Position numbers and translations under genes: made by a program | Assembly (NCBI GenBank): GCA_963170165.1 | Contig: CAUJGQ010000077.1 | Coordinates: forward strand, 1 to 60,798 | Direction of reading: 5' to 3' | Length of the DNA stretch: 60,798 bases | Source of the DNA: Chloroflexota bacterium | Lineage (GTDB): Bacteria; Chloroflexota; Dehalococcoidia; CAUJGQ01 | The notes under the pieces: model-generated | The model's database searches: none | Seen by the model: only the letters and a program-made list of their open reading frames with translations | What the model was told of the DNA's origin: nothing | Shown: positions 13,171 to 29,882 of the stretch, one piece after another | How positions within the stretch are numbered: the first letter of the stretch is position 1 | Layout: every line of letters begins with the position of its first letter

Positions 13171-13593
13171 TCACGGCTGGCCGTCTCCTGGTTCAGCACA
13201 GGCCGGGGTGATCCCCCAGCGGGCAAAGCGGCGGCGATGGCGGGCAAACCCATGATAGGCGCGCTCCTCCAACCAGAAGCAGCCGGGCAGCGCTGCCACC
13301 CGCGCCGCCAGACGCCAGGGGCCACCCATTTCGCGCAGGATGGTATTGACCGCGGCGGCGGCGGCAGCGCGCCGTCCGTCCGCCGTCACCGTCTGTAGAG
13401 CACGGTCTGCCTCGGCGCGGCTGATACCGAACCGTTCGATGACGCCGGGCGTCTGGCTGGGCAGCACCAGCACACGGCTGGCGGGCACGCGGGCGCGCAA
13501 CCACGCGGCCATCCGCGTTCACACCCCTCACCAGCCGTCAAACAGCACCAGCAGCCGCCACTGCCCGGCTAACCGCGGGTCTGGTTCGGACAT
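13171..13593 (-). CDS. DCC-family (DUF393) thiol-disulfide oxidoreductase, candidate UxxU selenoprotein
   Basis: 140 codons from ATG 13593 (GGGAG 6-7 nt before) to the TGA at 13171. The DCC signature DGxCxxC appears as LLVLFDGW-TGA-GV-TGA-TRMA: both redox Cys positions (codons 22 and 25, TGA at 13528-13530 and 13519-13521) are in-frame TGA. The frame is otherwise open and family-like on both sides: LVLFDGW before; then AAWLRARVP, LVLPSQTPGV, AAVNTILREMGG, EERAYHGFARHRRRFARWG and TPACAEPG after. A hairpin at 13487-13518 has SECIS-like geometry. Best reading: selenocysteine at both sites. Alternative: a pseudogene with two coincidental nonsense changes, or two sequencing errors. Annotated as a 113-aa protein from 13512, it would lack its active site. 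Confidence 0.75.
13487..13518 (-). promoter_or_regulatory. SECIS-like stem-loop directly after the two TGA codons
   Basis: On the minus strand the 32 nt after the second TGA can fold as ACGCGG/CCGCGT (6 bp), a small internal loop, then CGCG/CGCG (4 bp) closing the loop TGGTTG. Bacterial SECIS elements lie just downstream of the UGA, within the coding region, and carry a G early in the apical loop, as here. The loop lies 24 nt from the first and 15 nt from the second TGA. A competing 6-bp hairpin with loop ATGG uses the same left arm. Confidence 0.5.
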
Positions 13594-13663
13594 CGCCGCT
13601 CCCCGGGCAGCCGGCCACCACGGCCCGTGCTACCCTGCGCGCATCCTACACGAGGGCAGGGGC

Positions 13664-29111: not shown

Positions 29112-29882
29112 GTGAAGCTGCTGGTTCTGGGTAACAGCAACGATGACGCCCGCCGCCCGCCGCCGGCCGGGTTGGGCGTGACGCTGGTGCGCGAGGCGCT
29201 GGCGGCACGGCTGCGCGAGGGGGTAGAAGTGGTGGTGCGCCCCGCCGTGCCCAACCCGCAGCTACCCGCCCATATCGAGCGGGTGACGGCCGAACTCGAC
29301 CCCGACATCGTGATCGTGCACGTCTCCGGTTATCTGGTGGGTCCGGTATCGCCCGCCAACCGGCTGCAGACGCTGGCAGGTGGGAGACTGATGCCGCTGT
29401 TCTCGCGGGTGCGCGGTACGGCACGCGTCACGCTGGGCGCACGAGACACCGCCACCCGCAACGCCGCCCGCCGCCCCGGTCCGTGGCTGTACCGTGCCGC
29501 CCGTAACCGGCTGTTTGCCGCCGGACTGGCCACCCCCGCTATCTCGGTGCCCGTGGCCGCTGCCGCCTACAGCGCCGCCATCGCGCATCTCAGCGGCCGT
29601 GAGGACCGGATCGTGATCGTGCGCGGCCCCACCACCTGGAATGAAGACCCCGATGACCCGTTCCTGGTGGGGGGCGCGCAGCGGCGCATCTCCGAGCTGG
29701 AGCGGCGGATCCGCCAGGCGTGCCAGCGCCACCGGGCGCCGTTCATCTCACTGCTGGACGAGCTCGAGCGTGACCCGCGCGCCCTCCTCGGCAGCGACGA
29801 CCTGCACCTGAGCGAGCACGGCCAGCGGCTCCAGGCGCAGCGGGAGCTGGCGGTGTTGCTGCCGATCGTCGCGCCGGGGTAG
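29112..29882 (+). CDS. SGNH/GDSL-like hydrolase
   Basis: 256 residues, GTG start. Block I is LLVLGNSND (GxS), block III the conserved IVIVRGPTTWNED, and the C-terminal block V DDLHLSEHGQRLQAQ holds the Asp-x-x-His pair. Fold of esterases, lipases and acyltransferases; no signal peptide, so the substrate is probably intracellular. An Ala/Arg-rich middle region (RVTLGARDTATRNAARRPG) replaces the usual compact helices. Substrate not inferable. A TACCCT box lies at 29063-29068. Confidence 0.75.
   Translation: MKLLVLGNSNDDARRPPPAGLGVTLVREALAARLREGVEVVVRPAVPNPQLPAHIERVTAELDPDIVIVHVSGYLVGPVSPANRLQTLAGGRLMPLFSRVRGTARVTLGARDTATRNAARRPGPWLYRAARNRLFAAGLATPAISVPVAAAAYSAAIAHLSGREDRIVIVRGPTTWNEDPDDPFLVGGAQRRISELERRIRQACQRHRAPFISLLDELERDPRALLGSDDLHLSEHGQRLQAQRELAVLLPIVAPG

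Follow-up and report, generated by a model that had tools for sequence, protein, structure and literature searches.

A predicted DCC1-like selenoprotein gene lies at positions 13171 to 13593, on the minus strand, of the window (the whole stretch of 60,798 nucleotides that was analysed). The assignment is based on translation with TGA as selenocysteine (Sec), on a match to PF04134 and on homologues. The gene comprises 140 codons and a final TGA stop. It opens at an ATG (13593-13591) that is preceded, at a spacing of 5 nt, by the Shine-Dalgarno-like sequence GGGGAG (13599-13604, minus strand; read directly from the sequence) and, about 12 codons upstream, by an in-frame TAG. Two further TGAs occur within the frame on the minus strand, at codon 22 (13528-13530) and codon 25 (13519-13521); from codon 25 the frame is open to the closing TGA at 13173-13171. 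The translated N-terminus reads MSEPDPRLAGQWRLLVLFDGWUGVUTRMAAWLRARV, where U denotes Sec.

Residues 16-125 of the translation match Pfam PF04134 (DCC1-like thiol-disulfide oxidoreductase) at E 1.9e-16 and 61.8 bits, against a curated cut-off of 27.8 bits, and the match spans both UGAs. The active site of this family, DGxCxxC, reads DGW-UGA-GV-UGA in the window gene, and alignment with Cys homologues places the two UGAs on the first and second conserved cysteines. Position and context of the motif are thus conserved with UGA replacing both cysteines, and the active site is that of the family if Sec is accepted as the redox residue. The initial annotation had described a DCC (DUF393) protein with TGA at both motif cysteines, an ATG with a Shine-Dalgarno sequence 21 codons before the first TGA and homologous sequence on either side of the TGAs, and had proposed an alignment with Cys homologues; all of this was borne out, the PF04134 match covering both flanks. 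The frame downstream of the UGAs also scored as coding by codon usage, with the DCC genes collected here as the training set. Over the 36 codons after the motif, the window gene differs from its homologue in genome G025 at 7, 7 and 20 first, second and third codon positions, respectively, 13 differences being synonymous; conservation at the protein level therefore continues past the UGAs.

An AlphaFold2 model built with 37 relatives (pLDDT 88.6, pTM 0.81) has a strand at residues 14-18 leading into a helix at residues 23-35, so that the UxxU motif (residues 22-25) would be located at the start of the helix, like the CxxC motif of thioredoxin. Structure searches returned mainly thioredoxins, glutaredoxins and PDI domains, all as weak matches (best Foldseek E 0.078; VIA-align Z of 4.6 or less). 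A sequence search for a solved DCC protein structure found none, and its two calmodulin matches (E 0.03) look like chance. The neighbours of the gene in the window encode a HAD hydrolase and a divergent acetamidase/formamidase. The flanks in other Sec genomes had nothing in common, save that two related MAGs share an MFS transporter and a TMEM164-like neighbour, and gene neighbourhood was dropped as a guide to function because it is not conserved. Elsewhere in the window, TGAs that lie in frame and are flanked on either side by coding-like sequence were noted at 29750 (minus strand), 54731 (minus strand), 57471 (plus strand) and 18558 (plus strand), some of which may be ordinary gene ends.

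The assembly from which the window derives (G000) is 97% complete and was searched for the Sec-decoding machinery, as the initial annotation had suggested. A tRNA-Sec with anticodon UCA was identified by ARAGORN, together with selA (502.8 bits), selB, which could be read through to its C-terminal region, and selD. The last has a UGA at its own Sec site (SCGGUASK), and the SelD of this genome is itself a predicted selenoprotein. As had been stated, selA, selB and tRNA-Sec are outside the window, all being located elsewhere in the same assembly. A lack of selB and tRNA-Sec in the genome had been named as evidence against Sec, and this objection fails because both were found. In a related genome, G007, two selD copies were observed (G007:C193:3609-4535 and G007:C194:44132-45055), both of which contain a TGA in frame.

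Among 393 genomes of the same class, UxxU homologues were identified in G025 (55% identical), G007 and G003, and a further search, covering 400 genomes from the phylum, added many more, along with UxxC, CxxU and CxxC relatives. The DNA pattern FDGx-TGA-Gx-TGA had 36 matches in the GTDB collection, of which 23 run on into a DCC domain at E 3e-13 or better, as judged with an HMM for which only Cys members were used; the other 13 have no DCC continuation and look like chance matches. After removal of duplicates and of one truncated contig, the distinct DCC genes analysed were 31 UxxU (the window gene and 30 others), 5 UxxC, 5 CxxU and 49 CxxC. UGA in the Sec-type relatives is found only at the motif cysteines. 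Matches with one TGA in group f33, G608, G545, G566 and G632 were left out of the Sec counts because they are CxxC genes with TGA at the frame end. The presence of UxxU in dozens of related genomes suggests a genuine selenoprotein family.

The named UGA-pattern matches are mostly from Chloroflexota, including entries titled Thermomicrobiales and Dormibacterota. UxxU genes outside this phylum were found in Rubrobacter, a Rubrobacteraceae MAG, another actinobacterial MAG and Candidatus Brocadia sp. WS118. In the last of these, a planctomycete MAG, the UxxU DCC gene (L118, 583-611, minus strand) reads DGDUGFURR, and a tRNA-Sec is present in the same record. CxxC and UxxU paralogues occur together in genome G736 (L049 and L082), and one genus holds both G003 (UxxU) and G044 (CxxC). 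A tree of 77 proteins was built after masking of the motif columns, and on it the homologues with Cys, with one Sec and with two Sec are intermingled. The four motif states need at least 15 changes on this tree, and Sec versus Cys at least 13, although the protein is short, many forks are unresolved and the starred branches alone force fewer changes. A distant relative with the motif DAGCPVU (CxxU; L041, 1501-1872, minus strand, genome G307) was omitted from the tree.

The motif state was then compared with the Sec pathway across genomes. Among 27 genomes whose DCC gene carries UGA, tRNA-Sec was detected in 24 and selA above the cut-off in 25; three lack tRNA-Sec, two lack selA and none lacks both, and all of these are incomplete MAGs. 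Seven of eight further UxxU genomes, traced from named records, also have tRNA-Sec. Six genomes in which neither tRNA-Sec nor selA is present (G343, G001, G556, G687, G411 and G156) carry CxxC. Many CxxC genomes also possess the Sec pathway, so the pathway accompanies the Sec form and not the reverse.

A candidate SECIS hairpin was identified by folding at 13487-13518 (minus strand), and its apical loop, UGGU (13503-13500), is separated by 24 nt from the first UGA and by 15 nt from the second. This hairpin fits SECIS anatomy, but its distance from the second UGA is just below the 16-37 nt allowed by the published model (PMC13188914). That model is permissive for GC-rich sequence, and 17 of 20 Cys genes pass it too. 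The folding energy of 32-nt windows in each gene was compared with that of 100 synonymous recodings. In UxxU genes, stability in excess of the recodings peaked (mean z -2.11) in windows whose centre lies 31 nt from the first UGA and 22 nt from the second, whereas CxxC genes had no peak in the same test (mean z +0.10). The two groups differed in a rank test (p 8e-13; family means -1.93 and -0.02), a value that is optimistic because the sequences are related. The UxxC genes, only five in number, had a peak at about the same place, their single UGA being about 31-34 nt upstream, as did the CxxU genes, likewise only five, for example L071 with the loop GGUC 17 nt after the UGA. A SECIS-like hairpin is thus selectively maintained in the Sec genes as a group. 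The signal in the window gene alone is weak (z -0.68 at centre 31 and -1.23 at 34), and single-gene folding of this gene against shuffles was not significant in GC-rich DNA. RNAalifold found no common fold on ungapped alignments, probably because the relatives use more than one hairpin register. UxxU genes showed no second stability peak where a hairpin fitted to the first UGA alone would fall, so one SECIS probably serves both UGAs.

A pseudogene, or an error of sequencing or assembly, could account for two nonsense changes at the motif, TGA being the ordinary stop of the window's genome and only one base change away from TGC. Such an origin is extremely improbable when 30 other distinct genes, from independent assemblies, have UGA at the same two codons with the remaining frame open, and when the downstream frame of the window gene scores as coding and its differences from G025 fall mostly at the third position of codons. 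The initial annotation had likewise considered two chance nonsense changes at CxxC unlikely, and a sequencing error at 13519-13521 and 13528-13530 is effectively excluded because independent assemblies share the UxxU motif. It is also very unlikely that the UGAs are read as another amino acid, for example as Cys by a UGA-reading tRNA, to give a selenium-free product. Cys is the ancestral residue, and some bacteria have tRNA-Cys variants that read UGA; however, tRNA-Sec, SelA, SelB and a Sec-type SelD are all encoded in the window's genome, the UGA sites follow the presence of the Sec pathway, and a plain suppressor would not need the hairpin that is selected in UGA-bearing genes.

A further alternative accepts both Sec residues and assigns a separate SECIS, or an alternative hairpin, to each UGA. 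The window gene does yield different best hairpins for its first and second UGA, and the relatives show more than one hairpin register and no common RNAalifold structure. Set against this, UxxU genes have one main peak of selected structure near the UGAs, which is in the same place in UxxC genes, and separate elements are regarded as rather unlikely.

Taken together, these data support, at the level of sequence, the double-Sec interpretation of the initial annotation. The window gene is best explained, with a probability of about 0.92, as encoding a small, free-standing DCC-family oxidoreductase of the thiol-disulfide type in which both active-site cysteines are Sec, decoded by SelB, probably through a single SECIS, and which would cycle through a diselenide. 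We infer that selenium is inserted at codons 22 and 25, and diselenide chemistry would follow from the DCC family and the chemistry of selenium. In the proposed mechanism, SelB and the tRNA-Sec (UCA) would decode both UGAs, probably directed by a single SECIS hairpin that is located after the second UGA and is near enough to act on either codon. When reduced, the enzyme would have a pair of selenols, which would form a diselenide during the catalytic cycle. This pair would lie where the first helix of a thioredoxin-like fold begins, and the enzyme would reduce a disulfide, a peroxide or a similar substrate. More broadly, the balance of the evidence leans towards a single SECIS hairpin by which SelB is directed to two Sec codons spaced only 9 nt from each other, so that the enzyme would form its diselenide within one molecule, with the CxxC, CxxU, UxxC and UxxU DCC genes forming a natural series of SECIS gain, sharing and loss.

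The double-Sec DCC proteins apparently constitute an undescribed selenoprotein family, although the UxxU motif itself is already known in other families. An inventory of 119 prokaryotic selenoprotein families and subfamilies published in 2026 contains no PF04134, DUF393 or DCC entry (PMC13188914). No paper in the literature searched, which included few subscription papers, preprints or GenBank protein annotations, links selenoproteins or selenocysteine to DUF393, PF04134, the DCC family or DCC1-like. The initial annotation, which knew of no double-Sec DCC protein, agrees with both results; single members may nevertheless have been annotated earlier. The family would add to that inventory one with two Sec in a single active site. 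It also bears on genome annotation, because ordinary gene callers would truncate or omit double-UGA DCC genes. The family also opens two questions to experiment. One is whether a single bacterial SECIS is able to serve two UGAs that lie close together; the other is what advantage a diselenide offers over a disulfide, given that CxxC, UxxC, CxxU and UxxU are all used by close relatives within one phylum.

Selenoprotein L, which belongs to a different family from DCC, is found mainly in aquatic animals. It is a diselenide selenoprotein family in the account of Shchedrina et al. 2007, as cited in PMC2398784, and is set apart from DCC here by description. Two Sec in a UxxU motif are also listed for the metal-binding protein NF041115 and for FmdB-family selenoproteins (PMC13188914, Table 1). 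These share the UxxU motif with the window protein but are families unrelated to it, and the window protein had no match among NCBIfam models. The Prx-like thiol:disulfide oxidoreductase selenoproteins (PF00578), with UxxC or UxxU (PMC13188914, Table 1), would resemble it as thioredoxin-like redox selenoproteins with UxxU in some members; they belong to another Pfam family, however, and against PF00578 the window protein reaches no more than 12.4 bits, well short of the cut-off of 26. With the Cys-form DCC1-like family (PF04134, DUF393), the window protein shares length, DGxxGxx context and probably the fold family, near relatives being 45-50% identical. The Cys forms differ in having CxxC and no selected hairpin, whereas in the window protein both cysteines are replaced by UGA-encoded residues.
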